A stretch of 64,000 nucleotides of DNA, taken from NCBI GenBank assembly GCA_003999685.1, contig CP021231.1, positions 620,001-684,000 on the forward strand, in the 5' to 3' direction. This stretch comes from Taiwanofungus camphoratus (taxonomy: Eukaryota; Basidiomycota; Agaricomycetes; Polyporales; Taiwanofungaceae). The notes under the pieces were generated by a model that saw nothing but the letters and a program-made list of their open reading frames with translations, did not search any database and was not told where the DNA came from. Made by a program: the position numbers and the translations under genes. Shown piece by piece: positions 35,237 through 54,337 of the stretch. How positions within the stretch are numbered: position 1 is the first letter of the stretch; each line of letters starts with the position of its first letter.

Positions 35237-35625
35237 GGCGCATCCTGAGTGCGATCGTCGACGTCAACGGTGACGACAGGCGGGCATAGGCTATAGATGG
35301 ACCCACGTTGACGCACCAGGAGATGTCATCTCTGCACTCCGACTGCAATAAATCAAACAGACCCCATCAGAGGTTCCATGGAGAAGGACGCGGCGGGCGG
35401 CCGCCATTGGTGCCCTGCTGGCATTTGTGACAACCAGCTGCCATGGCCAGCGAGTCGTGCAGGGCTGCTTATGGATGCTCGTGTGCGGTTTGGAGGCAGA
35501 TACTGCCAGTGTGGCACAGCAACAAATGCTTGGGGTGCACGCGCCAGCGAATCCTCGGGAAAGGGGTGCTAGTGATCATGTCTGCAAGGGGCACTTTAGG
35601 ACATAATGCATCAAGAACTGAGATT

Positions 35626-35639
35626 GAAGGATTTCGGCG
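35626..35639 (+). repeat. Target-site duplication of the LINE, left copy
   Basis: GAAGGATTTCGGCG here recurs at 54656-54669 directly after the LINE poly-A tail. This fixes the LINE's left end at 35640. Confidence 0.85.
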
Positions 35640-35692
35640 GCCGCTTCTTGAACCAGTACCACCACCATCTAGATTTAGCGCCCGTGTCTGGC

Positions 35693-37268
35693 ATGTCTAA
35701 ATCCCATCGTTCCCTTCCCTATTCTCCCCATACTGGTGCCCTTATAGCCGCTGTTGGTCCTAGGACTGATAGTGCACCCACCTCGTCGAGTGCGATGTCG
35801 GTGCATGGCGGCTGCCCTGCTCATCGCACTCAAGCTGACTCGGACCATCCGAGATCTCGTCCTTTGGACACACCTTTGAACTCACCCTATCATGGGGAGA
35901 GTTCCACTTCGAGTTCCTCTCTTTCGAGAGGTCCTCTCTTTGAATTGTCGGCCATAGTGCCAAACAATTCACAAAGGATTCGTAGGCCCTCTCTCTCTGA
36001 GGGAGGGGGTAACGAATACAATGGTACTGGAGGCAGCCTTGCTGTCTCCATGCCCCTTGCCCACGCTGGAAGTGCATGGCACACCAGTTCGGGCCTAGCG
36101 CCAATAAACCCGTATGGGCTTACTGAGTCAGTGTATGAACCGGAAATTTCCGACGGTGCTTCGGCCCCACCGTTTGGAACTCCGCCGGAGTCACAACATA
36201 ATGAACGGTCCGATTCCCCCATGGAGGTGGAAGCGGACCCCTCCCGTACGCCCAGCCCAACGGCTGATGGCGACAATATGAGAGACGAACCTACCAGGCT
36301 CACACTCACATGCATAAGCGCAAATGTCCAGAAATCTGCGGAGAATACGGGCATTTTGCTTGAGAGACATAGGGACGCCGACATTGTCTGCGTCCAGGAG
36401 ATATTCTGGGGCCGTATCAAGGATGTGGCCTCAGCTAAGTCACGAGACGGGGAGGCGTATGAGAATACGTCTGCCCATGCCTCGTTTAAGTGCCTCGGGG
36501 CATCGAAAGATTCCCGGGTTGCAATCTATGTCAACAAGCGGTGGGCCGCGGCCTCCCCGCAAGTTGTCACCCACAGTGTCTCCCATAAGGACTGCCTTAT
36601 GGTAGCGCTTAAGCTTCCGTCCGGAGACTTTAATGTCCTGAACGTGTACAACGACAGCACCACCTTTGATGCTGTCCGATATTTGGAAACACGTGTACAC
36701 GCGCTTCCACCCATTGCGTGTATGTGCGGGGATTTCAATCTCCGCCACCCATTGTGGGATGCACGAGCTGCGGGATCTCGGGTGCGGCCTCCGCACTACG
36801 CTGATTCCAATCGCCTCATCGAGTTGGCCCAGGCCGAACTTGATCTGGTCTTGATGAACGCCACGGACGGTCCAGTCACGTGGCGTTCCCACAACATCGC
36901 TCTCACACCCGGAGTCATTGACTTGGTGTGGATCGACCCAGCGTACTATGAAGGCCAAGACCTTCATGTACTCATGTCACATCGCCATAACAGCGACCAC
37001 GCGGTCCTGCGGTGGGAGATGCCGATTGAGGTTGAGCCAGAACCGGTGAGGGGTATTCCTCGCACCGGTGACACGGCCCAACAATTTGTGACGGCAACGG
37101 CGAAACTGTTCGTTGATTACCCTACACATTTCAGCAGCGCCCAAGGCGTTGAACGAATGGGGGATCGCCTAGAGCGAGACCTCCAACGACTATGGATGGA
37201 GTTTTCAACAGTAAAACAACCATCCAAACGTGCAAAGTCGTGGTGGGATGCTGCATGCTCCCGCGCGG
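35693..37268 (+). CDS. LINE ORF, N-terminal part: APE-like endonuclease
   Basis: The first ATG inside the LINE is at 35693; an ATG at 35606 in the same frame lies outside the element in flanking DNA. Residues 1-200 are Ser/Pro-rich and of unknown role. Residues about 203-435 form an endonuclease/exonuclease/phosphatase domain with the ISANV segment, the metal-binding Glu of VCVQEI, the GDFN motif and a closing SDHAVL. This nicks target DNA to start reverse transcription. The frame is open up to the LTR insertion at 37265-37268 and continues in the same frame beyond it, so the protein before insertion was about 1,650 residues. The insertion separates endonuclease from reverse transcriptase and inactivates this copy. 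Confidence 0.92.
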
Positions 37269-37794
37269 TGATACGACCTAGGGGACCCTGGTACCTAGGG
37301 AGTGCTCCGCAACGTGGCTGGGGGTAGTGTGATAACTGTGAAGGTGTGAGGGTAGGAGCTACAACCTGTATGATACCGGGAAACCTGTATGTCTTGTTTT
37401 TATAAGTGGGGGAGTAAGGGGCCAAGGGTCCTGCACAACAGGATCTTGTTCCTAAGTGCTATACTAACCCTGAGGCCTTGCGAGGCCCTCCGAAGTATGC
37501 GAAGTTCTTCGAGGTTTTGCGAAGTCCTTCGAAGTTTTAGCTAAATCGCGCGAGCTGACTTCGTAGATGTTGCGAAGTCCTTCTAGCTAGAGTTAGCTAA
37601 AGGGCGTAAGGCTTAGGGGTGTGTTAGAGCGAAGTGGGCGAGGTCTGGCTAGCGTAGGAGACCTGTAGGAGAGGTCGGGGAGTTTGAGGGCGTAGGGAGC
37701 TGTACTATAGCCTGTAACTAAGGCTATGGGCGAGTCGTAGGGCTATTGGTAGGACGTAGGGATAACGCAACGTGAGCCTAAGGGTATAACTAAG

Positions 37795-37798
37795 GCGG
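37795..37798 (+). repeat. Target duplication GCGG, left of the full Gypsy element
   Basis: Matches GCGG at 49875-49878. The uninterrupted site is visible in the other LTR copies (CTAAGGCGGAGG on the reverse strand). Confidence 0.85.
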
Positions 37799-39405
37799 TG
37801 ATGAGTCCCGTAGCCTCCTGGGCCCCGAATCGCGATTTTAGGAGCTTTCTAATCCCCCAACCGACCACTCTAAGACTCTCCTACAGCCTACGACAGGAGG
37901 GATAGGTTCCTATAATATTCCTAACGCCCCCTCTTCTTCCTAAACCCTCCTAACACCCTACGAAGTCTTGCGAAGTCACACGAGGTGCTACGAGATTTCG
38001 AATGCTAGACGCGAAGTCCCTAACTCCTGCTAAGTCCACTATCGGACACTGCCGGCCCTCCCATACTGTTCCATTGGATCTAGGTCCTATCTACTACGTC
38101 ACTCATCCCGGGCTTAGCTAAGAAGTCTTAGCTAAGTCTCTCCTAGCTCTTGTGATTGCAGCTACCTCCGATAGGCTCCGAAACGGTCCGAAGTTCCGGA
38201 AGCTGGACGTAGGAAGCCTTGTGCACCCCCATGGGTCTCGATCCTATGCCATAAGGTCATCCTAGGGCGTACCCACATGACCCTCCACCCAGTTAGGACA
38301 CCTCCTGCCCCGATTAGGCCAAGTCCCGCTGCTAAGAACTTCGTGCGCTCTTAGCCCGCTAAGATAGGTGATCACGGCGCATGGCTGCTATCGGATAGTC
38401 ATCCCGCCCTCGTGAATGAAGTTGGTCACCTTTCTACCGTTCGTAGTTCCCCTGTTTCAGTTCCTAATTAGTTCCTATCCTCCTCGTGTTCACTTCGGAG
38501 TCCAGGCGTTTTAGTACACATTTCGGACTCGTAAGGATCACTTCGCGCAAGATTAGTTCACCTCACGCTCTCCTATTTAGTCAGAGGTAGTTTACTATGT
38601 ACAAGAGAGACCCCTCAGTGCACGCTTCTCTCTTTGGAATACCAGTTCCCCTGTAGCTCCGATCTCAGGAAAGCGCCGCGAGTACAACCTTAGGAACGGT
38701 CCTAAGGTCCCTAAGTCTCCACCCCAGCTTCATTTCAGTACCTTTAAACTACGTCTACGCTCGCGATATATCTACGAACCACGTCTACGCTTCCCGAACT
38801 ACGCACTACGATCTACGAAAGTCGCCGTGACTTCGCACCCTTCGGCACCTCTTATAGCACCTATCCGGTGGGCCTCCGCCTTAGTTATACCCTTAGGCTC
38901 ACGTTGCATTATCCCTACGTCCTACGAATAGCCCTACGACTCGCCCATAGCCTTAGTTACAGGCTATAGTACATCTCCCTACGCCCTCGAACTCTCCGAC
39001 CTCTCCTACAGGTCTCCTACGCTAGCCAAACCTCGCCCACTTCGCTCTAACAAACTCCAAAACCTTACGCCCTTTAGCTAACTCTAACCAGAAGGACTTC
39101 GCAGCATCTACGAAGTCAGCTCGCGCAATTTAGCTAAAACTTCGAAGGACTTCGCAAAACCTCGAAGAACTTCGCATACTTCGGAGGGCCTCGCAAGGCC
39201 TTAGGGATAGTATAGCACTTAGGAACAAGATCCTGTTGTGCAGGACCCTTGACCCCTTACTCCCCCACTTATAAAAACAAGACATACAGGTTTCCCGGTA
39301 TCATACAGGTTGTAGCTCCTACCCTCACACCTTCACAGTTATCACACTACCCCCAGCCACGTTGCGGAGCACTCCCTAGGTACCAGGGTCCCCTAGGTCG
39401 TATCA
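37799..39405 (+). repeat. 5' LTR of the Gypsy element
   Basis: 1,607 bp, TGATGAGT to CGTATCA. It is dense in CTTCG/CGAAG words, mostly near both ends. A TATA box lies near 39270. Confidence 0.96.
39270..39277 (+). promoter_or_regulatory. TATA box of the 5' LTR
   Basis: TATAAAAA lies about 130 bases before the end of the 5' LTR, at a fitting distance for transcription of the genomic RNA to start within the LTR. The 3' LTR has the same box near 49739. Confidence 0.55.
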
Positions 39406-39445
39406 TTTCTGGAGCCCACCGCGAGGGGGAGCAGTCAAGATTTCA

Positions 39446-42379
39446 TTGCCTTCAGATCATCCTACGTCTAACCAGTCCTCTCCGAGAAACAGCGATCAGT
39501 TACTATCCGAGTTCTTTCAGGTCGGCTATCGTTACTATACTCAAGCAGGCCTTCCACGAAGCACCTCTTCGCGAACACCTACGACTATCCCCTCCGATAT
39601 CATTTCTACACTCGAATCTTCCGAATTGACCCCCGACTTTGAGGCTCTTTTCGAAGGGTCTCTAGACACGCTTACCACGTCCGAAGACTCACCAATTGAG
39701 GACTTCGAACCTCAGTCCACGTCCCCTGAGCTTCCTAACACCTCCGAAGGAAGCGGTCCTTCTTCAGCGTCTGACCCTATCTTAGTCCATTTACCGGCAT
39801 CCCCTCAGCTATCCTCTACGCTCCCATCAGCTTCGCGTTCCCCTCCGATTCCTTCTATTACACTTTCCGACGCTTCTACGACCCAATCTTCTTCGGCTAG
39901 CATCAACTCAGCTTCGAACCCATCTCTGACCGCACCCATTTTAGCTAATCCCCTAAATCCTATTTCTGTGTCAACCATGAACGCACCTCCACTCATGCCG
40001 CCTCGAGGAGATCGTACATCCCCTACCTTCGATCCTGACCAGCCTAGGACCATCCGAAGGTATTTCCAGGACTTAGAGTCACTTTTTGTCCGCTGCCAGA
40101 TAGCGGATGAGGCGACGAAGAAACACTGGACTACTCGCTACCCTCCTATCGATGTTTCGGACCTATGGGAGTCCCTCCCTGAGTGTTCCGATGTCACGAA
40201 GACCTATGAAGACTTCAAGAAGGAGATTAGAAGCCTCTACCCAGGCACAGAGGACGATAGAATGTGGTCTATGTCTGACTTGGATCAGTTGATAGGAGAA
40301 CGTGCTAGAATTGGAATCAACAATGCGGCAGACTTAGGAAGCTTCTATCGTGAGTTTTATGCCATCACGAAGTATCTAATTTCGAAAAATAGGTTGTCTA
40401 CTATCGAGCAAAGCCGTGCTTTCGCGAGGGCCTTCCAGCCTTCGCTATGGGCTCGCGTGTCTACTAGGTTACAGCTAAAGTTCCCTGATCACTTACCCGA
40501 TGATCCCTACACCTTGGACCAGCTACATAGCGCGGCGAAGTTCGTACTCCTTGGTACTTCTACGACTCTTACCTCTGCTACGACTGTAACTACTTCGCCC
40601 ACTGCCGTGCCCGTGGGGGGCTCATCGCTAAAGATAGAGGATCTACAGACGTTCGCGGAGATCCTCACGAAGTCCGTAACCAGTGCGCTAGCTCCTGTTC
40701 TTGCGAACCAGCGACCCTCTCGATTGGACAGCTCGCGCGGCGAGCACACTCATGTAGAAGGCCAGTACTGTCACTATTGCGGGGACTTGGACTGCTGCAC
40801 TAGGTGTTGCAAGCACATCGAGCAAGACATCAAGGATGGCAAGTGCAAGCGCAACCCAGATGGAAAGATAGTGCTGCCAAATGGAAATTTTGTACCCAGA
40901 ACGATCCCAGGACGTACGATTCGCGATAGGCTTTACGAATATCATCGACGAAATGGCACGAATTCCTCCCCACAGCTCCTATTCGAAATCGACAATCGCC
41001 TAAATGTGCCTGCATTCTCACTATCCGCCGAGGATCGTATAGCCGCTTTAGAACACGAGATTTACCAACTTCGGAGACGTCGCGAAGTCTTCGATGGTGT
41101 GGAAGTACCCCAGCGCAGAAGGCAGGGTGCTCCTAACGCGCAGTCTGATCCTAGAAACCCACCCATAGCCAACGCACCTCCGATAGGACACGATCGGCAT
41201 CCGGTAGTGGATCCCCCTGCTAACCAAGATGCCCCAGTGGCGGAGGCGCAGAACCAGACCCCTCCTACCATTCTAAGGCGATCCAATTATCCTTCTAATT
41301 CAGCGCCTTCGCCTCTGAAGCCTGCGAATGCGTCCGATCCGCCCATGAACTCATCGGAGCATGCCTCGTCTACACCTAACGTACCAGCCCAACCAGCATC
41401 ACAGGCAGCCATTCCACCGCCCGCTCCACCAGTACATCCTTTCGCTAATGCTCGAGATGCTACTTACGCACCTCCGAATCTTCGAAATTTCGCAGCAGCT
41501 CCGAAGCCTACAGCAGATAAAGGCAAGGACGTGGCCTATAAGACGATCACACCGGTTCATCAGGAGAAACTTACAGAGGAAATATTCGCGCGATCTATGA
41601 GAACACCCGTGGTTACACTAACGCCCGAGGAGCTACTATCTATATCCCCGGATGTTCGTGCGCGATATCGCGAAGCTATCACCCCTAAACGTGTGCCTAT
41701 GGATCCTAAGGCTACTCATATGGCTCAAATTACGGAACTCTCAGACGATCTCGCTTCTAAAACGACGCTAGCAACCTCCGAACTATCGTGCCACGGTGAA
41801 CCCCTTGTCCCTGGTTCGACCATCATTCCAGACCCCTACGAAACGTACTTACGACACGTACCCGGAAAGGAAGAACCCTCCGAAATCATAGTAGCCCGCG
41901 ACTCGAATTCTATCCGTTCTATCGAAGCCCTAATCGACAACAAAGAGCGAATCGAATGCATCGTGGACCCTGGGTCACAAGTGGTTGCGATGTCAGAGCA
42001 AGTCTGTCATGCCTTAGGACTAATCTACGACCCTTCCGTGCAGCTAAATATGCAGTCTGCTAATGGCAGTATTGACCGTTCTTTAGGACTGGTTCGAAAT
42101 GTCTCGTTCCAAGTAGGCGACATCGTGTTGTACCTACAGATACACGTCATACGCAATCCCTCCTACGATATCCTTCTAGGCCGACCCTTCGATGTGGTAA
42201 CCGAGAGTGTGGTTAAGAACTTCGGAAACGAGGAGCAGACCATCACGATCGTATGCCCGAACACGAGCGAAGTCGCGACCATCCCTACGATGCCTCGAGG
42301 ACGTCAAAAGTTCTTACCAGCCCATCATCATAGTTGCCCCCACGCGAACTCTTCGAATCATTTGCGATCGGGTTTTTAG
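39446..42379 (+). CDS. gag: Gypsy gag-protease ORF
   Basis: A frame of 977 codons. The first third is Ser/Pro/Thr-rich. The middle holds a gag-like helical region (near 40020-40520, RRYFQDLESLFVRCQIADEA). A small Cys-rich cluster (near 40765-40830, CHYCGDLDCCTRCC) is a likely nucleic-acid-binding part, though it is not a standard zinc knuckle. A retropepsin-like aspartic protease segment lies near 41930-42200 (IVDPGSQVVAMS, then YDILLGRPF). The end overlaps the start of the pol ORF by 46 bases in another frame, as in relatives that make Gag-Pol by frameshifting. Confidence 0.9.
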   Translation: MPSDHPTSNQSSPRNSDQLLSEFFQVGYRYYTQAGLPRSTSSRTPTTIPSDIISTLESSELTPDFEALFEGSLDTLTTSEDSPIEDFEPQSTSPELPNTSEGSGPSSASDPILVHLPASPQLSSTLPSASRSPPIPSITLSDASTTQSSSASINSASNPSLTAPILANPLNPISVSTMNAPPLMPPRGDRTSPTFDPDQPRTIRRYFQDLESLFVRCQIADEATKKHWTTRYPPIDVSDLWESLPECSDVTKTYEDFKKEIRSLYPGTEDDRMWSMSDLDQLIGERARIGINNAADLGSFYREFYAITKYLISKNRLSTIEQSRAFARAFQPSLWARVSTRLQLKFPDHLPDDPYTLDQLHSAAKFVLLGTSTTLTSATTVTTSPTAVPVGGSSLKIEDLQTFAEILTKSVTSALAPVLANQRPSRLDSSRGEHTHVEGQYCHYCGDLDCCTRCCKHIEQDIKDGKCKRNPDGKIVLPNGNFVPRTIPGRTIRDRLYEYHRRNGTNSSPQLLFEIDNRLNVPAFSLSAEDRIAALEHEIYQLRRRREVFDGVEVPQRRRQGAPNAQSDPRNPPIANAPPIGHDRHPVVDPPANQDAPVAEAQNQTPPTILRRSNYPSNSAPSPLKPANASDPPMNSSEHASSTPNVPAQPASQAAIPPPAPPVHPFANARDATYAPPNLRNFAAAPKPTADKGKDVAYKTITPVHQEKLTEEIFARSMRTPVVTLTPEELLSISPDVRARYREAITPKRVPMDPKATHMAQITELSDDLASKTTLATSELSCHGEPLVPGSTIIPDPYETYLRHVPGKEEPSEIIVARDSNSIRSIEALIDNKERIECIVDPGSQVVAMSEQVCHALGLIYDPSVQLNMQSANGSIDRSLGLVRNVSFQVGDIVLYLQIHVIRNPSYDILLGRPFDVVTESVVKNFGNEEQTITIVCPNTSEVATIPTMPRGRQKFLPAHHHSCPHANSSNHLRSGF

Positions 42380-45300
42380 ATTTCGAGGATTTGAGAAATC
42401 AAGGAGAGGTCGCCCTGGTCGTTGAGTATGAATCCGATACCCCTAAAATCGTGTCTTTCGCTGCTGTAAATGCAGCAGATAACAATTCTGTTCCTGTGCT
42501 CTATCTATCAGTCTCTAACTCTGTGTCTAGCTATCTGCAGTCTCTCTATTTTAGCGAAACTTCGAAAGTCTCGGAAGGTCCGGCTGATCATACTAGGTGG
42601 CTATCTGGCTTTCTAGCAGCAGCAACACCGCACGAGGCTCCCTTCCTTTCACACGATAATCCGAATTCTCTCCCTATGCTTTCGCTTTCCGCCTCTAAAG
42701 ACATATCCTCTATCCCCATTCCAGGTCCCAGGAACGCTACGAAGGTCACGAAGTCAGCCCGAAGACCCTCCCTTGCTCCTAATCCGATGGTATCCCTTCC
42801 TAAGTTGTCAGATTCTTCCCCTATTCCTACATTTGCAGCATCGAAAAAGAAGTACAAGCCTGTAGCGCTGAAGACTCGCCCTATTCTGGGAGCTTTGGAC
42901 GAACGATTCCGAATCATTCGCGAAATTAAAGGCGACCCTTTAGCGACGATGCCTACCCTATCACCGACTCCACCACCTTTCGAACCTACTTCGCGATATA
43001 CGCAAGAACGGCACGATCTCACGGACAAGCTACACAGTGGAGACTTCCTACAACCAGCAGAGAGGGACCTCCTACATCACTTTATGACCCTGCATGCTGA
43101 TGCGTTCGCTTGGAATGATTCCGAAAGAGGGTGCTTCAAGCCGGAATACTTCCCTCCTATCGACTTTCCGGTAGTACCGCACACGCCATGGGTACAAAAG
43201 AACATTCCTATCCCACCCGGAATCTACAACGAAGTGTGCGCAATAATCAAAAAGAAGATCGCAGCTAGGGTCTACGAACCTTCGAATTCTTCCTATCGTT
43301 CACGATGGTTTTGTGTGGTGAAGAAAGACGGAAAGTCCCTACGCCTTGTACATAGTCTGGAACCCCTAAACGCTGTCACGATTCAACACTCAGGTGTTCC
43401 CCCGACTCCCGAACACCTCGCAGAACAGTTCGGAGGACGACCTTGTGGTGCTATGTTGGATCTATATGTAGGCTACGATGAACGCTTGATAGCGGAGACT
43501 TCGCGCGATCTTACGACATTTCAAACACCTTTCGGAGCTATGAGATTGGTCACTCTACCTATGGGATGGACCAACTCGGTCCCTATCTTCCACGATGATG
43601 TTACGCACATCCTACAGCCCGAAATTCCTCACCTAACGGTTCCCTATATCGACGATGTTCCGGTCAAAGGCCCTGAAAGTTCGTACGATCTCGTACCTAT
43701 TTCGGAGAACCCAGGCATTCGAAAGTTTGTTTGGGAACATTTTACGAACCTCAATAGGATAGTCACACGCATGCGCTACGCAGGAGGTACCTTTTCTGGA
43801 GTTAAAAGCATTCTAATTGCCCGCGAAATCACCGTTGTAGGGCATCGGTGTACTCCAGAAGGTCGCCTACCGGACGAGTCTCGTGTTGCAGCCATACGCA
43901 ACTGGGGACCTTGTGCAACCCTATCTGACGTTCGAGCCTTTTTAGGAACCATTGGAGTGGTCCGTATCTTCATCCGAAACTTCGCGCATCGTGCAGATGC
44001 CTTAGTACGCCTAACGCGAAAGGCGGTACCCTTCGAATTTGGTCCAGCGCAAATCGCAGCGCAGGAGGACCTTAAGGATGCTTTGCTGTCCTCTCCAGCT
44101 CTCCGATCCATTAACTATTCGTCAGGTGCGCCCGTCATCTTAGCGGTTGACACCTCCTATATTGCAGTTGGCTATCACCTTTGCCAATGCGATGAGGACA
44201 ACCCTAAAGTCCGATTCTACAATCGTTTCGGATCCATCACCCTAAATGATCGCGAGCGGAGGTTCTCGCAACCGAAGTTAGAGATCTACGGATTGTTTCG
44301 AGCACTTCGCGTACTACGAATCTACCTAATCGGAGTTAGGAACCTTATAGTGGAAGTGGACGCACGCTATATCAAAGGGATGTTGCAAAATCCGGACATC
44401 GCACCCAGCGCGAGTATAAATCGCTGGATCGTATCGATTCTAACATTCCATTTCACCCTAGTACATGTACCAGGTACGATGCATGGACCAGATGGACTAT
44501 CAAGACGAACCCCCCAGCCAGGAGATCAAGAAGAGAGCAGCGAAGAAGACTTCGAAGACTGGATAGACAAAATGCACTCGTTTCTACATCACATCCAAGC
44601 CCCCCCTTCCCATCCTATACCATCGATTTCTACCCTATTCCCTTACGAATTCGCCTCTAACATTCCTATCACAACCCCCACACCTCCGATAGCTCCAACC
44701 TTCGCCTCCGAGTTGGCTGAGGACAGCCAAGGTCTCAATAGGGAGGAGGAGAGCTACGATAGCGTCCCAAGATCCGAAATGGCCAAGGAAGCTGACGCAA
44801 GACTTGACTTAGTAGCAAAATTCCTACGAAGCCTCGCGAGACCTGCCAACCTATCGGATTCAGAATACGAAGGTTTCGTAAAATACTGTCTTCTATTCTT
44901 CCTCGATGAGGACATACTATGGCGCAAAGATCCACAAGGAGCTCACAAACTAGTTGTAAAGCAGGCAGATCGTCTACGAATCCTCCGAGAATGTCACGAT
45001 GCAGTCGCGCATCGAGGAATACACGCTACGAAGGTGCTGATTTCGGAGCGGTTTTGGTGGCCCTACCATCATATCGACATTGCCTGGTATGTTCGAAGCT
45101 GCCACCTATGCCAGATTCGCCAAGTGCGGCAGATCCTAATCCCTCCTACGGTCGCTACGCCCGCTCCGATCTTCGCAAAGGTTCATATAGATACCATGCA
45201 TATGCCCCCTTCTAACGGATTTAGGTACTTGGTGCAAGGCCGGTGTTCTCTAACCCAGTACCCCGAATTTCGGATGCTTCGCAAGGAGACGGCTAAAGCT

Positions 45301-46188
45301 TTGGCAGAATGGCTCTTCGAAGACTTTGTTTGTAGGTGGGGTGCGCTATCGGAGATAGTCACGGACAACGGCGCTCCCTTCGTAAAAGCCACGAACTACA
45401 TAGCGAAGAAGTACCAGCTACGACACATCCGAATTAGCGGGTACAATTCGCGTGCCAACGGACTGGTGGAGAGGCCTCACTTCGATGTTAGGCAGGCTCT
45501 ATTCAAGGCCGTGGATGGCGAAGAGTCTAAATGGTCTCAGGCAACGTACTCAGTCTTCTGGTCCGAAAGGATCACGACTCGAAAGCGCATGGGATGTTCG
45601 CCCTATTTCGCAGTCACTGGCACCCACCCTGTTATCCCTTTGGACGTCGTAGAGGCCACCTATATCCTTCCTCCTCCGTCCTCCATGCTATCCACGACCG
45701 ATCTTATCGCACGTCGAGCTATCGCATTGCAAAAGCGGGTGACTCAGGTAGCGGAACTACATTCGAAGGTCTACGAAGCGCGAAGACAAGCTGCTCTGCG
45801 ATTCGAAGAAAAGCATAAGCACACCATCCACGATTTCAACTTCGAAAAGGGCGATTTAGTACTAATTCGCAACACACAGATAGAAAAGTCCCTAAATCGA
45901 AAGATGCGACCTCGCTACCTCGGCCCGGTACTCGTGGTATCTAGAAACAAAGGTGGTGCTTATATCCTATGCGAATTGGATGGTTCGGTACTCGACAGGC
46001 CTACGGCAGCCTTCCGAGTCATCCCCTACTTAGCGCGAAAAGCCCTCGAACTTCCTACCGAACTCCTGGACGTGTCGACAGAGCGACTTCGCGAACTAGA
46101 GCTGACTACCACCCAAGGCGATGACGAAGAACTAGGATCGTATCCCTACTCTCCTAAGTCCGGCTCTAGTCCATCCGAAACTCACTAA
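42334..46188 (+). CDS. pol: Gypsy pol ORF: reverse transcriptase, RNase H, integrase
   Basis: A frame of 1,284 codons. Reverse transcriptase spans about 43270-43720 with the YIDD box near 43650. RNase H follows (about 44130-44510). Integrase has its N-terminal H-H-C-C zinc part near 45000-45120 and a catalytic core near 45180-45500. A GPY/F-like module (RPRYLGPVLVV) lies near 45905. I see no chromodomain after it. The RT-RNase H-integrase order places the element in Ty3/Gypsy. Confidence 0.95.
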   Translation: MPPRELFESFAIGFLDFEDLRNQGEVALVVEYESDTPKIVSFAAVNAADNNSVPVLYLSVSNSVSSYLQSLYFSETSKVSEGPADHTRWLSGFLAAATPHEAPFLSHDNPNSLPMLSLSASKDISSIPIPGPRNATKVTKSARRPSLAPNPMVSLPKLSDSSPIPTFAASKKKYKPVALKTRPILGALDERFRIIREIKGDPLATMPTLSPTPPPFEPTSRYTQERHDLTDKLHSGDFLQPAERDLLHHFMTLHADAFAWNDSERGCFKPEYFPPIDFPVVPHTPWVQKNIPIPPGIYNEVCAIIKKKIAARVYEPSNSSYRSRWFCVVKKDGKSLRLVHSLEPLNAVTIQHSGVPPTPEHLAEQFGGRPCGAMLDLYVGYDERLIAETSRDLTTFQTPFGAMRLVTLPMGWTNSVPIFHDDVTHILQPEIPHLTVPYIDDVPVKGPESSYDLVPISENPGIRKFVWEHFTNLNRIVTRMRYAGGTFSGVKSILIAREITVVGHRCTPEGRLPDESRVAAIRNWGPCATLSDVRAFLGTIGVVRIFIRNFAHRADALVRLTRKAVPFEFGPAQIAAQEDLKDALLSSPALRSINYSSGAPVILAVDTSYIAVGYHLCQCDEDNPKVRFYNRFGSITLNDRERRFSQPKLEIYGLFRALRVLRIYLIGVRNLIVEVDARYIKGMLQNPDIAPSASINRWIVSILTFHFTLVHVPGTMHGPDGLSRRTPQPGDQEESSEEDFEDWIDKMHSFLHHIQAPPSHPIPSISTLFPYEFASNIPITTPTPPIAPTFASELAEDSQGLNREEESYDSVPRSEMAKEADARLDLVAKFLRSLARPANLSDSEYEGFVKYCLLFFLDEDILWRKDPQGAHKLVVKQADRLRILRECHDAVAHRGIHATKVLISERFWWPYHHIDIAWYVRSCHLCQIRQVRQILIPPTVATPAPIFAKVHIDTMHMPPSNGFRYLVQGRCSLTQYPEFRMLRKETAKALAEWLFEDFVCRWGALSEIVTDNGAPFVKATNYIAKKYQLRHIRISGYNSRANGLVERPHFDVRQALFKAVDGEESKWSQATYSVFWSERITTRKRMGCSPYFAVTGTHPVIPLDVVEATYILPPPSSMLSTTDLIARRAIALQKRVTQVAELHSKVYEARRQAALRFEEKHKHTIHDFNFEKGDLVLIRNTQIEKSLNRKMRPRYLGPVLVVSRNKGGAYILCELDGSVLDRPTAAFRVIPYLARKALELPTELLDVSTERLRELELTTTQGDDEELGSYPYSPKSGSSPSETH

Positions 46189-46721
46189 AGAATCAGAGGA
46201 GCAATCGACGATACCCCGACTTTAGCTAAGATTACGCTACGTCCATTTTACTTTTCGCTTACCTTTTGGTCATGTTTTTACTTTCCCCAACAAGCCCCCA
46301 CTCAGTTTGACAGCTACGAAGTTCCGAATGTCTACGAATTTTTACTTACAACATCTCCTACTTTTTACTATAGTGATTCAACTCACGAAGTCGCGATATC
46401 GTTCTAAAAAGCTCCTAAAACGCCGAGCGGAGCGAAGATTGCGCGAGGGGCCTTAAGCCCTTCAAGGCCATGATGATTTACTGAGCCTAAATGAGCGCAT
46501 TTTATCCCCCTAAGTCTTCTAATTCTTTGCTGTGTTGTTTGGTTACTTCACACACTTAGGAACCTTTTCACAAGGACGACGTTTGCGTCCGCTTTATTCA
46601 GACTACTGTACACATATTGGAAAAGGTCCCTAGCAAAGGGACGCGCAACGAGAGAGAATACAGCACGTTGGTGCGACAGATACGGAACGAGCGAGATGAC
46701 GAACTACGAACCCCCCACCTT
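46189..46721. other. Gypsy element, stretch between pol and the antisense gene
   Basis: About 530 bases without a protein-like frame, where pol and the antisense gene end facing each other; probably 3' UTRs of both. Confidence 0.5.
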
Positions 46722-48099
46722 CTAAACCTCGGCCTCAGCATCTTCCTCATCCTGCTCGGACTCACCAGAGGGACCAGGATCGGTAGAGGAGGCGGCGACG
46801 CGACGGCGAGGAAGGGGGAGAGAGCTCAAGTCGAGCGGCGCAGGCGTACGACCGGTTAGGGCGGTTTCGGCACGATAGAGCCCCGAGATGTAGTCTTCGA
46901 GACGCATCGCGCGACTCTCGGCCATCGCGCGGTCATACCAGAGGCCTTCGACAACGGCTTGATGCGCAGGGGTGAGGCCGTCCAAGTATTCAGCGCCGTT
47001 AAGGGCCAGCGAGGCCTCGAGCGACATCGTAGGCGCAGGGGTCGACTTCGCCTTCTTGGACTCGCGGGCGCGAGGCGGGGACACCTGAGGAGGTTGGCCC
47101 GCAGCTAGGGAACGTCTTAACATCAGCAATGTCGCGATAACGAGGGCACGAGAAGCCCTACCACGCTTCGAAACGCGCACGCCGCGCTCCTTACCGTCTA
47201 CGGAGAATCCGCCCCAATAACACCCCTGCGACTCTCGCAGGCACTTACCACACTTCACGGCGCCCGCGGGGAGTTCGCACTCGAAGTCTGCGGTGTAGGT
47301 GCTGCAGCGATCGCACTAGGTAGCAATGATAAGCCGCGAACAGTCACGAAAAGGACGTGCACTCACCTTCGCATGAGTTCGCCTATGCTCCGCCGCCTTC
47401 GCCATGTTAGCCAGGGCTTCGGGCGTCGGAGGAGCCTTCGCCTTCGCAGCGTCCTTCCCCGGAGTAGGAGGGACCCCTACGAAGACACCCGAACTAGTGG
47501 ACGAGGCGAGTTCACCAACTTGGCCGCTAGAAACGGAGGCCATGATCGAGCTGGCCTGGGAAGCCGCGCGAGTAGAAGCCGCTGCCTTGGCCCGAGCTGA
47601 GGGACGACGAGTACGCGAGGAGGTACGACTAGGAGCCGGCGAAGGAGCAGAAGACGAAGCCGCAAGTTGGGCAGCACGTTCAAGCGCAGCGCGCTCGACC
47701 GCCTCCACACGAAGTCGTTCGGTCGCACGGGCGAGTTCGCGCTGTGCGTCTCGCTCTTGAAGCATAGCAGCGAACTGAGGAAAGCCGGTGCGAGCCCACG
47801 AGATCCACGACGAGTCCGCGAGAGGGAGGATCGCCGTCAAACCTTCGACGATGGCGGCCTCTAAGGTAGGATCGGCGGGAGCGTTCGAAGCCTGGGACAG
47901 GACCCGCCAGTTACCCTATAACGCAGTGAAGACGATGTATCGAGCGATCGAGGAGGGTACGTACCACACGACGTCCTAAGTTCCTCGCCCACCGCAGGTA
48001 ATCTTCGGCCTCCGCTACGCCCTCCGGACGAGAATCGAGGAGTGCCAGGACATCGCTGTGAGCCAGGCCAACACCATCAGAGTCCATATCGTCGAACAT
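46722..48099 (-). CDS. Antisense accessory gene of the Gypsy element: Cys-rich, zinc-cluster-like protein
   Basis: On the opposite strand to gag-pol, between pol and the 3' LTR, lies a spliced gene of three exons: about 48099-47965, 47915-47367 and 47315-46722. Both introns (48 and 51 nt) have GT-AG ends and join in phase. The predicted product is about 425 residues: an acidic N-terminus, a long Ala/Ser/Arg-rich coiled or disordered middle, then a cysteine cluster at the start of the last exon (CDRC, FEC, then CGKC and GCYWGG, near 47315-47220), and an acidic C-terminus. The cluster resembles fungal zinc-cluster DNA-binding motifs, but the family is inferred from spacing only. It starts 168 bases from the 3' LTR behind a CT-rich tract typical of fungal promoters. 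Confidence 0.75.
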
Positions 48100-48267
48100 G
48101 ATGGGGAAGGGAAAGGCAAAAGGGGAGAAAGGAGAAAAAGATAAGAGGCACCCACAATTAGCTTCTATCAGGATATCGCCCGCTTCGCAGATCGGACGCG
48201 ATAGGCTACAAGTTCCCACGGTCGCGCACACTGACTGAGGGCAGTCAGGATTTCAATAGGGAGGAGG

Positions 48268-49874
48268 TGATGAGTCCCGTAGCCTCCTGGGCCCCGAATC
48301 GCGATTTTAGGAGCTTTCTAATCCCCCAACCGACCACTCTAAGACTCTCCTACAGCCTACGACAGGAGGGATAGGTTCCTATAATATTCCTAACGCCCCC
48401 TCTTCTTCCTAAACCCTCCTAACACCCTACGAAGTCTTGCGAAGTCACACGAGGTGCTACGAGATTTCGAATGCTAGACGCGAAGTCCCTAACTCCTGCT
48501 AAGTCCACTATCGGACACTGCCGGCCCTCCCATACTGTTCCATTGGATCTAGGTCCTATCTACTACGTCACTCATCCCGGGCTTAGCTAAGAAGTCTTAG
48601 CTAAGTCTCTCCTAGCTCTTGTGATTGCAGCTACCTCCGATAGGCTCCGAAACGGTCCGAAGTTCCGGAAGCTGGACGTAGGAAGCCTTGTGCACCCCCA
48701 TGGGTCTCGATCCTATGCCATAAGGTCATCCTAGGGCGTACCCACATGACCCTCCACCCAGTTAGGACACCTCCTGCCCCGATTAGGCCAAGTCCCGCTG
48801 CTAAGAACTTCGTGCGCTCTTAGCCCGCTAAGATAGGTGATCACGGCGCATGGCTGCTATCGGATAGTCATCCCGCCCTCGTGAATGAAGTTGGTCACCT
48901 TTCTACCGTTCGTAGTTCCCCTGTTTCAGTTCCTAATTAGTTCCTATCCTCCTCGTGTTCACTTCGGAGTCCAGGCGTTTTAGTACACATTTCGGACTCG
49001 TAAGGATCACTTCGCGCAAGATTAGTTCACCTCACGCTCTCCTATTTAGTCAGAGGTAGTTTACTATGTACAAGAGAGACCCCTCAGTGCACGCTTCTCT
49101 CTTTGGAATACCAGTTCCCCTGTAGCTCCGATCTCAGGAAAGCGCCGCGAGTACAACCTTAGGAACGGTCCTAAGGTCCCTAAGTCTCCACCCCAGCTTC
49201 ATTTCAGTACCTTTAAACTACGTCTACGCTCGCGATATATCTACGAACCACGTCTACGCTTCCCGAACTACGCACTACGATCTACGAAAGTCGCCGTGAC
49301 TTCGCACCCTTCGGCACCTCTTATAGCACCTATCCGGTGGGCCTCCGCCTTAGTTATACCCTTAGGCTCACGTTGCATTATCCCTACGTCCTACGAATAG
49401 CCCTACGACTCGCCCATAGCCTTAGTTACAGGCTATAGTACATCTCCCTACGCCCTCGAACTCTCCGACCTCTCCTACAGGTCTCCTACGCTAGCCAAAC
49501 CTCGCCCACTTCGCTCTAACAAACTCCAAAACCTTACGCCCTTTAGCTAACTCTAACCAGAAGGACTTCGCAGCATCTACGAAGTCAGCTCGCGCAATTT
49601 AGCTAAAACTTCGAAGGACTTCGCAAAACCTCGAAGAACTTCGCATACTTCGGAGGGCCTCGCAAGGCCTTAGGGATAGTATAGCACTTAGGAACAAGAT
49701 CCTGTTGTGCAGGACCCTTGACCCCTTACTCCCCCACTTATAAAAACAAGACATACAGGTTTCCCGGTATCATACAGGTTGTAGCTCCTACCCTCACACC
49801 TTCACAGTTATCACACTACCCCCAGCCACGTTGCGGAGCACTCCCTAGGTACCAGGGTCCCCTAGGTCGTATCA
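48268..49874 (+). repeat. 3' LTR of the Gypsy element
   Basis: Same length as the 5' LTR; no difference was noticed by eye. Confidence 0.96.
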
Positions 49875-50960
49875 GCGGAGGCCCACCGGATAGGTGCTAT
49901 ATGAGGTGCCGAAGGGTGCGAAGTCACGGCGACTTTCGTAGATCGTAGTGCGTAGTTCGGGAAGTGTAGACGTGGTTCGTAGATATATCGCGAGCGTAGA
50001 CGTAGTTCAAAGGTACTGAAATGAAGCTGGGGTGGAGACTTAGGGACCTTAGGACCGTTCCTAAGGTTGTCCTCACGGCGCTTTTCCTGAGATCGGAGCT
50101 ACAGGGGAACTGGTATTCCAAAGAGAGAAGCGTGCACTGAGGGGTCTCTCTCGTACATAGTAAACTACCTCTGACTAAATAGGGGAGCGTGAGGTGAACT
50201 AATCTTGCGCGAAGTGATCCTTACGAGTCCGAAATGTGTACTAAAACGCCTGGACTCCGAAGTGAACACGAGGAGGATAGGAACTAATTAGGAACTGAAA
50301 CAGGGGAACTACGAACGGTAGAAAGGTGACCAACTTCATTCACGAGGGCGGGATGACTATCCGAGAGCAGCCATGCGCCGTGATCACCTATCTTAGCGGG
50401 CTAAGAGCGCACGAAGTTCTTAGCAGCGGGACTTGGCCTAATCGGGGCAGGAGGTGTCCTAACTGGGTGGAGGGTCATGTGGGTACGCCCTAGGATGACC
50501 TTATGGCATAGGATCGAGACCCATGGGGGTGCACAAGGCTTCCTACGTCCAGCTTCCGGAACTTCGGACCGTTTCGGAGCCTATCGGAGGTAACTGCAAT
50601 CACAAGAGCTAGGAGAGACTTAGCTAAGACTTCTTAGCTAAGCCCGGGATGAGTGACGTAGTAGATAGGACCTAGATCCAATGGAACAGTATGGGAGGGC
50701 CGGCAGTGTCCGATAGTGGACTTAGCAGGAGTTAGGGACTTCGCGTCTAGCATTCGAAATCTCGTAGCACCTCGTGTGGCTTCGCAAGACTTCGTAGGGT
50801 GTTAGGAGGGTTTAGGAAAGAGAGGGGGCGTTAGGAACTTTATAGGAACCTATCCCTCCTGTCGTAGGCTGTAGGAGAGTCTTAGAGTGGTCGGTTGGGG
50901 GATTAGAAAGCTCCTAAAATCGCGATTCGGGGGCCAGGAGGCTACGGGACTCATCAGCGG

Positions 50961-53900
50961 CCACTAAGTTGGCGAACACCCAACACCGCCTTAGCGCGGC
51001 GTCTGGGCAGTATCGTTACACACGTCATCAGTTGGGACTTGGCGCTCAGGCCACTGCAGACGCATACGACGTTGCCGCCGAACTCCGGTCCGAACGGCAT
51101 AAACAACGTGCAATACTTCGCTGTGCCACGAAGCGGGCGAAGCGAGCACACTTTGATCGGATCATGGATAAATCCAGTCCCCAATCGATCTCGGACTTTG
51201 TCGCATGGACAAAGCCGAGACGGCAAGAGGCCACTATTCAGCTGCGGCAAGCTGACGGTGCGCCAGTCCAAAGTGCGGCTGATCTCAGCCGTGCTTTCCA
51301 AGCTCAGTTCACACCAGTCAACCCAAGGCAGGTGGATCTGTCATTTGTAGACGAAATTCCTCAACGAGAGGAGTTGACTCTACCAGATATTAGTGAGAAT
51401 GAGATTCGCGAGAATCTCAAATCCACTAGCAATACGTCCGCACCCGGTCCCGATCACGTGAACTGGATGTGGATCAAATGGATGGTGGACCGGATCGAGC
51501 GCTCCGAGGAGGGCATCGAGACCGATCTAGGTATACACGTGCGGCAATGGCTGCGCGCGTACTATAACGCTTGCCTCGACTTCGAGGTTTATCCGAGCGT
51601 TTTCAAGCGGTCTGTTACGGTGGTTTTACCCAAACCGAACAAACCAGATTATACGCTAGCGAAGGCCTACAGGCCTATCTGCTTGCTGAACTGCTTCGGC
51701 AAATTGTTCGAAAAGATCATTGCCAAGCGAATGCAGTGGGATGCCCAGAAGTGGGGAATCCTACACCCATGTCAGTTCGGTGGGGCTATGCAGCATAGCA
51801 CCACTGACGCTGGCATTCAACTTGTGCACAATGTCAAAGAGGCATGGGCGCGCAACCTTATCCCATCGGTGCTATTGCTCGATGTGTCCCAATTTTACCC
51901 GTCCATCAATCATGATGCGCTGGTAGGAATCATGCGAAAGCAGGGCTTCAATAGTAAGCTCTGCAATTTCATGGCAAATTACTTGATCGGGCGAAAAACC
52001 CGATTCATGTTTAACGGCACCCTGACCGATCCATCCGATTTTGATGTCGGAGTCGGTCAGGGTTCTAGCTTATCCCCGATCTTATCTGGGGTTTACATTG
52101 CACCGGTCATACACAAGTGGGCGCCAGTCCATTTGGTACAACCGGGCCGAACCGGGACTCAGTTCTATGTGGACGATGGTCTCATCATGGCGACTTCACC
52201 GAAGGCTGTTGACGACAGCCCGCAAGCCCTTATTTTGAAGAACAACGTCATTCTGGCGGATGTCTTCCACAATCTCGTAGGCGATCTGAACCGATTAGGT
52301 TTAGGCGTCGAAGGAGACAAGCTGGAGTTGATGCACTTCTGGAAGCGCCAGAAGGGGTATTCGACTTCTCGACCCCTCGGCCCGGATCTTACCATCCGGA
52401 CCGATGGACATGACGTCACTTTGCGAGCAAAGGACACGATGCGCTATCTTGGGTTCTTTTTAGACCCCAAGCTTAGCTTCCATGCTCACGTGCAGTTCTA
52501 CGCCAACAAGGCGGCCAGCACGTGCAATGCACTCCGCATGCTCGGTAATTCGGCACGCGGATTCCATCCTATCAACAAACGACGGCTCTATATAGCGCAC
52601 GTCGTTCCGCTGATGCTATACGGCGCTCAACTGTGGTGGAACCCACAGTGGAAGGGCCTCAAATGGGCTGCAAAAGAATTGCAGACCGCTCAGTCAAGAG
52701 CAGCTCGGTGGATAACCGGCTGCTTTAAGACCACACCGATCGGGGCGATGGAGATGTTGGGTGGGTTGGTCCCCATTCGCATCCAGGTCGACCGGTACAT
52801 GGAAAAAGCTGCACTTAGAGTGCGGAGAGTTCATGAAGGACACCCAATGAGGGCCGCTCTTCCACCATATTGGGCGACCAACGTCACCAATATCACTGCG
52901 CCATGGCCGCTTAACTCGCGACGTGGCAAAAAACAGGCTGTCACCCCCATGACGTTCATAGATCGCATCGGGAGGCAGTCATCAGAAGACTTTGCACCAC
53001 TCCACCCGGAGGCGCGGCCCGGCGATCGGGTCGTGGATCGGTACATTGATCGCTTCGAGCGGATGTTCTTGGACGGAAAAGGTCCAAACAAAAGCTCTCC
53101 TGAATTCGCCGACTGGTTGGAGTACACCTGGTGGCCGGAATTCCGGCGCCAGCTGGCCCAGCCAGAGGGGCGAATGTTATTTACTGATGGGTCGTATGCA
53201 AATACGCCCACAGTAAGATCTGGTAGCGCATGGCTCGTCATTGACGGGGAAGATCATGTCGCACATGGAAGGTTCGGGGCCGGAAAAGTCCAAAGCTTCG
53301 ATGCGGAGATGCTGGCATTGGCGCGCAGGCTGCGAGAAGCGGTCCGTGACGTCCCTGCCCACATCACCACCCTCACGGTCTGTTCCGATAACCAATCGGC
53401 ACTTGACCGAATCTTTAAGCCGGAAGTCGGGCCGTCGCAAATGGCGGCGGTCATGGCTTCTCAACACATCCGAGCGTTCCTCGATGCAGATGAACGCCGA
53501 CGCATTGTCCTTTTATGGGTTCCATCCCATAAAGGCATTTTCCAGAACGAGTTCGTTGATGAACTCGCGAAGAAAGCATTGGATGATCCCCAACCGGAAT
53601 TCATCTCACAATCGATGGCCCTTGCCCGTGTAAAAGCAAGGGTCAAAAAGCGCTGGGGGACACAAGTCGATAACCCCAGTTATCACGGCCGACGGTTATG
53701 GAAAGTAACCGAGGACGCCTTACCGCTGCACGGGACTACGGCCAAGGGCACGTGGGTCTTGAAGGCAGCAGGCAAGTCCAATAAGGAGGTGGCACGCGTA
53801 TGTCGCGTGCTTACCAATCATTTCCCTGGCGGTGAATACCGTTCTCGGTTCAATATCTCTGGCCCTCACCTCTGCCTATGTGGAGCGGAGGAAACTAGGG

Positions 53901-54337
53901 AGCATGTTCTCTTCGACTGTCCGTTTTGGATCAGGACGAAGCGCCAACAGGGTCCTCGTGATCCGCTTCTGATGGGGCCCCCTGAACAAAAGGGATGGAC
54001 CCCGGATGACATCATGGAGTTCCTTCGGCTCAACCCGATGGTCTCCACTTTCGATTGGGCAGAGATCCTAGCTGAATCTCTGCTCGAAGCTGAAGCTGCG
54101 TGCACGAGAACATTCACTCGTGCCCGTCTAATGTGCCACACTGTCGGAAGACAAATGGCCTGGCAACGGTTCCATACGGACCGACATTTAGATCCCGGTA
54201 TGACCACCGCCCTGGGTGGCAAATACCGAGAGTTTTGCGAGTGGTACGACGCCGAGGCAAAGGCGTTCGAAATGTACCATAACTGGATAGACGAGGGGAT
54301 AGCGGAACCCAGTATCCGCGACGACCCTCCCGTCTAA
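50961..54337 (+). CDS. LINE ORF, C-terminal part: reverse transcriptase, RNase H, zinc knuckle
   Basis: The continuation of the LINE ORF right of the LTR insertion, open to its stop at 54335-54337. Reverse transcriptase motifs include KAYRPICLLN, the motif A Asp in LLLDVSQFYPSI, motif B GQGSSLSP and the catalytic FYVDD (near 52165). An RNase H domain follows with LFTDGS, the Glu of FDAEML, the Asp of CSDNQSAL and WVPSHKG (53175-53540). Near the C-terminus LCLCGAEETREHVLFDC forms the C-x-C-x7-H-x4-C knuckle common in such LINEs. All key catalytic residues are present, so the LINE looks young apart from the insertion. Confidence 0.93.

Follow-up and report, generated by a model that had tools for sequence, protein, structure and literature searches.

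An antisense, multi-intron gene for a six-cysteine protein is under selection in a Ty3/Gypsy lineage of one fungal genome

The Ty3/Gypsy element in the 64,000-nucleotide stretch analysed here (the window, positions 620001-684000 of contig C12) carries between pol and its 3' LTR an antisense gene of four exons (48099-46722, minus strand, 406 aa), which is under protein-level selection and is not a chance ORF. Its place and its introns are conserved between element families within the one genome (33.2 Mb in 15 contigs) that was searched and from which all relatives come. Introns on the sense strand would be lost in the RNA cycle of a retroelement, and for an intron-rich gene kept by selection the other strand is thus a way round intron loss. 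These data suggest that the element encodes a regulator of its own on the opposite strand. Fungal Ty3 elements would then possess a class of regulators similar in layout to HBZ and the plant GENE23. The earlier note had described an antisense gene of spliced type with a cysteine cluster at this place, and such a gene is indeed present in the window. The element and the gene comprise the following features.

37799-39405, plus strand: 5' LTR, 1607 bp, without mismatch to the 3' LTR
39380-42379, plus strand: gag-protease ORF (Asp_protease_2, 3.6e-9)
42334-46188, plus strand: pol ORF, RT-RNaseH-integrase (RT_RNaseH 5.6e-10, Integrase_H2C2 3.7e-15)
46722-47104, minus strand: exon 4 with the stop codon, encoding an acidic C-terminal tail
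47105-47161, minus strand: intron 3, 57 nt, phase 1; 7.1% divergence over 27 copies
47162-47315, minus strand: exon 3, six-cysteine module at residues 229-260
47316-47366, minus strand: intron 2, 51 nt, phase 0, GTGAGT..CTAG; 7.5% divergence; the first cysteine codon follows directly
47367-47915, minus strand: exon 2, 183 codons; the N-terminal part is helical with a coiled coil and is followed by an Ala/Ser-rich and basic stretch
47916-47964, minus strand: intron 1, 49 nt, phase 0, GTACGT..ATAG; 5.3% divergence
47965-48099, minus strand: exon 1, 45 codons, ATG at 48099-48097; 2.55/1.15/6.83% divergence at codon positions 1/2/3
48100-48149, minus strand: pyrimidine-rich leader, 50 nt directly before the ATG, 92% C+T
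48258-48267, plus strand: polypurine tract preceding the 3' LTR (by eye)
48268-49874, plus strand: 3' LTR, 1607 bp, putative home of the antisense promoter

The assignment to Ty3/Gypsy follows from the two identical LTRs, the protease and the order of RT_RNaseH and then Integrase_H2C2 in pol; the Pfam models of the RT core and the integrase core have no match in the element at E up to 1. The element is young, its two LTRs being identical, and by eye it has a 4-bp target-site duplication, GCGG, at both ends and a purine tract before 48268.

The gene was compared with 27 other genomic copies, with the window as the reference and its own copy, L003, left out. The earlier model of three exons and two GT-AG introns stands for both introns: the GT donor and AG acceptor of intron 1 are kept in 27 of 27 copies, as are the GTGAGT and the TAG or CAG of intron 2. 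The third exon of that model does not stand, as it is interrupted by intron 3, which appears coding in the window copy because its length is a multiple of three and it contains no in-frame stop (one of the 27 copies has one). Its drift resembles that of introns 1 and 2, unlike that of codon positions 1 and 2; the acceptor TAG is kept in all 27 copies and the donor GT in 26, being lost in L040. By eye, intron 3 is found at the matching place in five of the six distant loci displayed (GTGAGT or GTAAGT..CAG; L013 is unclear) and is apparently present as GC-AG in a standalone homologue, L009. Homologues of exon 1 occur in a second clade of elements and in L009. The CT-rich tract reported before the start is also real, and in six related loci, five of them read at their ATG, the leader contains 74-80% C+T.

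The antisense orientation would explain how the introns persist, since the sense genomic RNA would read them as CT..AC, from which they are not removable, and they would thus survive retrotransposition. This proposal of the earlier note fits the presence of introns 1 and 2 in every compared copy. A spliced genomic copy would prove splicing, so we searched for the 28-nt exon 2-exon 3 junction with up to three mismatches and found no copy lacking intron 2 in the genome.

Selection was assessed in a base-level reading of 28 copies of the window family, the window included. Under the three-exon model, with codons containing gaps or stops skipped, the 27 copies give a pooled dN/dS of 0.20 against the window, the pooled counts coming from copies of common ancestry and not being independent; the shifted frames give 1.34 and 1.73. 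Per-copy values range from 0.05 to 0.35, with L002 lacking any synonymous change. The gene is free of stops in 23 of the 27 copies, stops being found in L008 (1), L046 (5), L047 (8) and L048 (8), and the ATG of L043 is absent from the alignment. When each distinct change is counted once under the four-exon model, there are 232 synonymous, 201 nonsynonymous and three stop changes (ratio 0.31, or 0.30 without L046-L048), and divergence over the 27 copies is 2.0/1.7/7.1% at codon positions 1/2/3. For exon 2 alone, the gene frame demonstrates a dN/dS of 0.18 with four stops over all copies. The sense-strand frame that has the same third positions gives 0.21 but contains 102 stops, so this mirrored frame is not coding; the remaining four frames have values of 1.38-1.85 with 83-237 stops.

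These observations bear on the possibility that the antisense RNA itself matters, pairing with the genomic RNA and feeding RNA silencing or limiting copy number, with the reading frame being incidental. Convergent overlap across the whole gene would permit dsRNA, and Vicient and Casacuberta discuss such a role for plant elements (PMC7264820), but codon-level constraint and kept introns and cysteines are not expected from RNA pairing alone, and we regard this explanation as improbable; an additional RNA role beside the protein is possible.

The window family is abundant: at an identity of at least 90%, 61 of the exon-2 matches are nearly full length. Its copies carry TGA-type decay, which may reflect methylation-linked mutation. 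A protein that protects the element from silencing by the host, whether through RNAi or methylation, would suit a family that is abundant and young and yet has copies with such decay; no Pfam match to a known suppressor was found, and this function seems unlikely, though slightly less so than an effect of the RNA itself.

Among the elements of the second clade, the gene follows the exon order of the window gene, with the cysteine exon between exon 2 and the last exon, and by eye its introns 1, 2 and 3 match as well; one further intron probably lies within exon 2 (by eye). The idea that related elements carry the gene in the same place is thus borne out in part, by related families of the same genome, with matching introns. 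We compared 14 clade-2 loci with L015, skipping stop codons. Seven loci of other subgroups (L012, L016, L018, L019, L022, L023 and L025) show dN/dS of 0.15-0.22 at dS of 1.0-1.3, where the rows of L012, L022 and L023 blend exons of two adjacent copies and, for exons 1-2, L018 and L022 represent a single place. L027 gives 0.32, and L013 is without a usable match. The close copies L014, L017, L020, L021 and L024 give 0.42, 0.55, 1.11, 0.44 and 0.59, respectively, so that constraint is weak or none among them, as in decaying copies. The window protein has 21-22% identity to clade 2, whereas the pol proteins of the window and of L012, L014, L015 and L017 demonstrate 64-71% identity over the aligned stretch; the accessory protein has thus changed more rapidly than pol.

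Searches of the genome returned 116 matches for exon 3 and 76 for exon 2. Among the 92 scored pol matches (of 369 candidates, 277 being unscored; tallied by hand), 88 have the gene downstream in antisense orientation within 3.5 kb, at a median gap of 541 bp. It accompanies 61 of the 62 matches of the near family (pol identity of at least 87%) and 27 of the 30 divergent-family matches (63-77%); at C1:276749, one of the four misses, a later search identified part of a clade-2 exon where the gene would be expected. As exceptions in strand, four exon-3 matches share the strand of a pol in that range. A further 27 of the 116 have no listed pol nearby, in part because most pol candidates are unscored. 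The lineage's pol is on the opposite strand and in the expected order in 17 of the 20 distant loci fetched, the exceptions being L009, L027 and L028. In 20 of 22 rows from related loci, among which one place is counted twice (L018 and L022), the codon for the first cysteine is immediately preceded by TAG; this is not seen in L026. The other exception, L028, was rejected as a relative, its cysteine pattern being absent, and L049 and L050, considered as host genes, proved to be transposon remnants.

As a contrast set, we took 150 scored matches to Pfam H2C2 (of 362 candidates), which probably belong mostly to other Ty3 groups because their scores exceed that of the window's own H2C2 (56 bits). 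An antisense exon-3 match lies within 5.5 kb of four of these 150, and a same-strand one also of four. By place, one of the four cases adjoins a copy of the window family that has decayed, another is inside a copy, and the remaining two are a mirrored pair adjoining clade-2 exons.

The simplest alternative is a host gene that lies beside the transposon by chance or was transduced once as a passenger, and a homologue with matching exon layout does stand alone in the genome, as a single copy. A one-off passenger is refuted, however, by the recurrence of the gene across families at a near-constant distance and by purifying selection between subgroups, which leave this alternative with hardly any credence; ancient capture of a host gene that became useful is possible.

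The standalone homologue, L009 (C3, about 1164016-1165346, minus strand; L009 6017-7347), is an intact gene outside any recognised element. It has open frames and the same exon layout, with identity to the window gene of 50% in exon 1, 29% in exon 2 and 40% in exons 3-4, and no second close copy of it was found in the genome. Across the 9.9 kb read around it, the DNA resembles neither the window element nor any of six other element loci; nothing there matches gag, pol or a LINE, and the sequence contains no internal repeat. An RNA12 gene (PF10443, 1.3e-17) adjoins it, and a frame resembling FG repeats is also nearby (by eye). In an unrooted tree, in which long branches are flagged as meeting, L009 clusters with clade 3 and the window family and is separated from clade 2; because of these branches and the lack of a root, capture from the host and domestication are inseparable. 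It is doubtful, but conceivable, that L009 is a domesticated antisense regulator used by the host against the element lineage. If so, the fungus would hold a retrotransposon in check by means of a repressor copied from that transposon's own backward strand, and the introns retained in L009 would indicate that DNA or unspliced RNA was captured. In any case, L009 offers a way to test whether the gene passed from host to transposon or the reverse.

The protein contains only six cysteines, spaced C-x2-C-x8-C-x8-C-x2-C-x6-C; the CDRC...C...C..C...C cluster recognised earlier opens exon 3. All six are kept in 27 of 27 copies, so that the cluster is conserved in related copies together with the positions of introns 1 and 2, and in the cross-family alignment (A1) five cysteines are invariant and the first is present in 14 of 15 members. 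A scan of viral and prokaryote contigs with this alignment gave 60 and 11 pattern-matching stretches, respectively, none of which was confirmed as a relative. Fungal Zn2Cys6 factors (PF00172) have the motif CX2CX6CX5-12CX2CX6-8C. In common with them, the window protein has six cysteines in two CxxC-containing halves, a coiled coil and an acidic stretch, but its spacing is x2, x8, x8, x2, x6, with a first loop of 8 instead of 6 and few basic residues there, and its coiled coil is N-terminal. The profile search of the exons proposed earlier for a zinc-cluster family went against it: 15 members have no match to Pfam Zn_clus at E up to 10. Searches of the module and the exons against Pfam and PDB returned weak, chance-like matches only.

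Structure prediction from single sequences gave a mean pLDDT of 46.6 for the exon 3 module, too low for a usable model. For exon 2, AlphaFold2 predicted, at low overall confidence, nothing but helices, at residues 2-10, 16-28, 35-44 and 46-87 (mean pLDDT 66.6; block values of 57-94 over residues 1-90), and this helical and coiled-coil N-terminal half probably dimerises. The C-terminal end is acidic in the window family, L009 and the clade-2 rows except L018, and basic stretches are also present. The putative zinc-type module probably binds nucleic acid, presumably DNA. Such a layout would be that of a regulator which dimerises and binds nucleic acid.

The same features suit a protein that serves replication outside transcription, in integration targeting, as a nucleic-acid chaperone cofactor or in nuclear import of the preintegration complex. 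The six-cysteine module and the basic stretches are appropriate for nucleic-acid binding and the gene is conserved alongside the element, but a product of the other strand is not packaged as a Gag fusion; this is the leading alternative, although we consider it rather unlikely.

The brtn gene of Boty-like elements reportedly goes back to Zhao et al. 2011. Extra antisense ORFs between pol and the 3' LTR are recognised as a class (PMC7264820, PMC11963269), which in fungi is represented by brtn of Boty, a Ty3/Gypsy element of Botrytis cinerea (PMC7264820, PMC8365987, PMC4227169), and such genes are less exceptional than the earlier view of them as rarely antisense and spliced would have it. As described, Boty resembles the window element in being a fungal Ty3/Gypsy element whose added antisense gene lies between pol and the 3' LTR. 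Its gag-pol is described as having a chromodomain (PMC4227169), whereas the window pol has none in Pfam at E up to 1. The brtn gene may have introns too. Among plant elements, the aORF-3R of Grande, RIRE2, Retand and PvRetro13 are likewise antisense and located between pol and the 3' LTR, occur in most copies of a family and are conserved between families, and their products are nuclear or DNA-binding proteins proposed as regulators (PMC7264820, PMC11963269). The TRP28 domain of Retand (PF04195) was not detected in the antisense gene when its exons were scanned apart with Pfam. The main text of PMC7264820 and PMC11963269 makes no mention of introns, and unlike these plant accounts the window gene has introns conserved in position. 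In HTLV-1, the antisense gene HBZ is described as being driven from the 3' LTR and as encoding a regulator from a spliced transcript (PMC10186651). HBZ differs in being a bZIP protein of a retrovirus, and its likeness to the window gene is one of layout, the promoter and transcript being presumptive here. PMC3248453, on LTR elements in fungi, mentions neither antisense nor intron, and titles and abstract openings in a literature with few subscription journals covered yielded no fungal Ty3/Gypsy element with an antisense gene of several introns. Thus, the class itself is known; what is new here is a multi-intron structure under selection, a protein with six cysteines and a homologue that stands alone.

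We favour the view that the gene is a functional accessory of a single Ty3/Gypsy lineage and would regulate the element's own sense transcription from the nucleus, a reading to which we give about an even chance. The gene would be transcribed in the direction opposite to gag-pol, its promoter lying in the 3' LTR or the 168-bp leader. A CT-rich leader suits a fungal promoter. Host splicing at the three introns, to which the conserved splice sites and the intron-like drift point, and translation would result in a protein of about 406 aa. In the nucleus, this protein would act on the element's own LTR or chromatin and determine how strongly or when the sense strand is transcribed, in the manner of HBZ in HTLV-1. 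On the precedent of HBZ (PMC10186651) and of GENE23 of Grande, which is described as nuclear (PMC7264820), regulation of element transcription is the most likely function, balanced about evenly against the alternatives taken together, with integration targeting second. This explanation is weakened by the off-canonical cysteine spacing and by a module without a Pfam or PDB match above chance.

Several further features of the window were observed. The region 35600-54337 is by eye a nested insertion, in which a reversed LTR of the element's own family is split by the element with its GCGG duplication; this LTR is flanked by two LINE-like ORFs, LINE being a reading of the ORFs. The gag and pol ORFs share 46 nt (42334-42379) in different frames, and given this overlap a programmed frameshift is likely needed for pol expression. 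A stretch within pol, 44711-44752, echoes the polypurine tract and its upstream flank at 48229-48267, with TCAATAGGGAGGAGG in common, and is a possible central polypurine tract; matches to this repeat also occur in the clade-3 loci L013, L049 and L050 and in none of eight clade-2 type loci tested. At 13777-35495, a unit of about 9.87 kb is repeated in tandem (an 11.9-kb self-match at 99.8%, with a partial third copy at 98.7%), which is a tandem duplication or an assembly artefact; rDNA was rejected, as an Rfam search found no RNA family there. Elsewhere in the genome, at C10:627326-659327, four copies of the antisense gene stand on one strand in even steps of 10.47 kb, a step equal to the LTR-to-LTR distance, like a tandem array with common LTRs.
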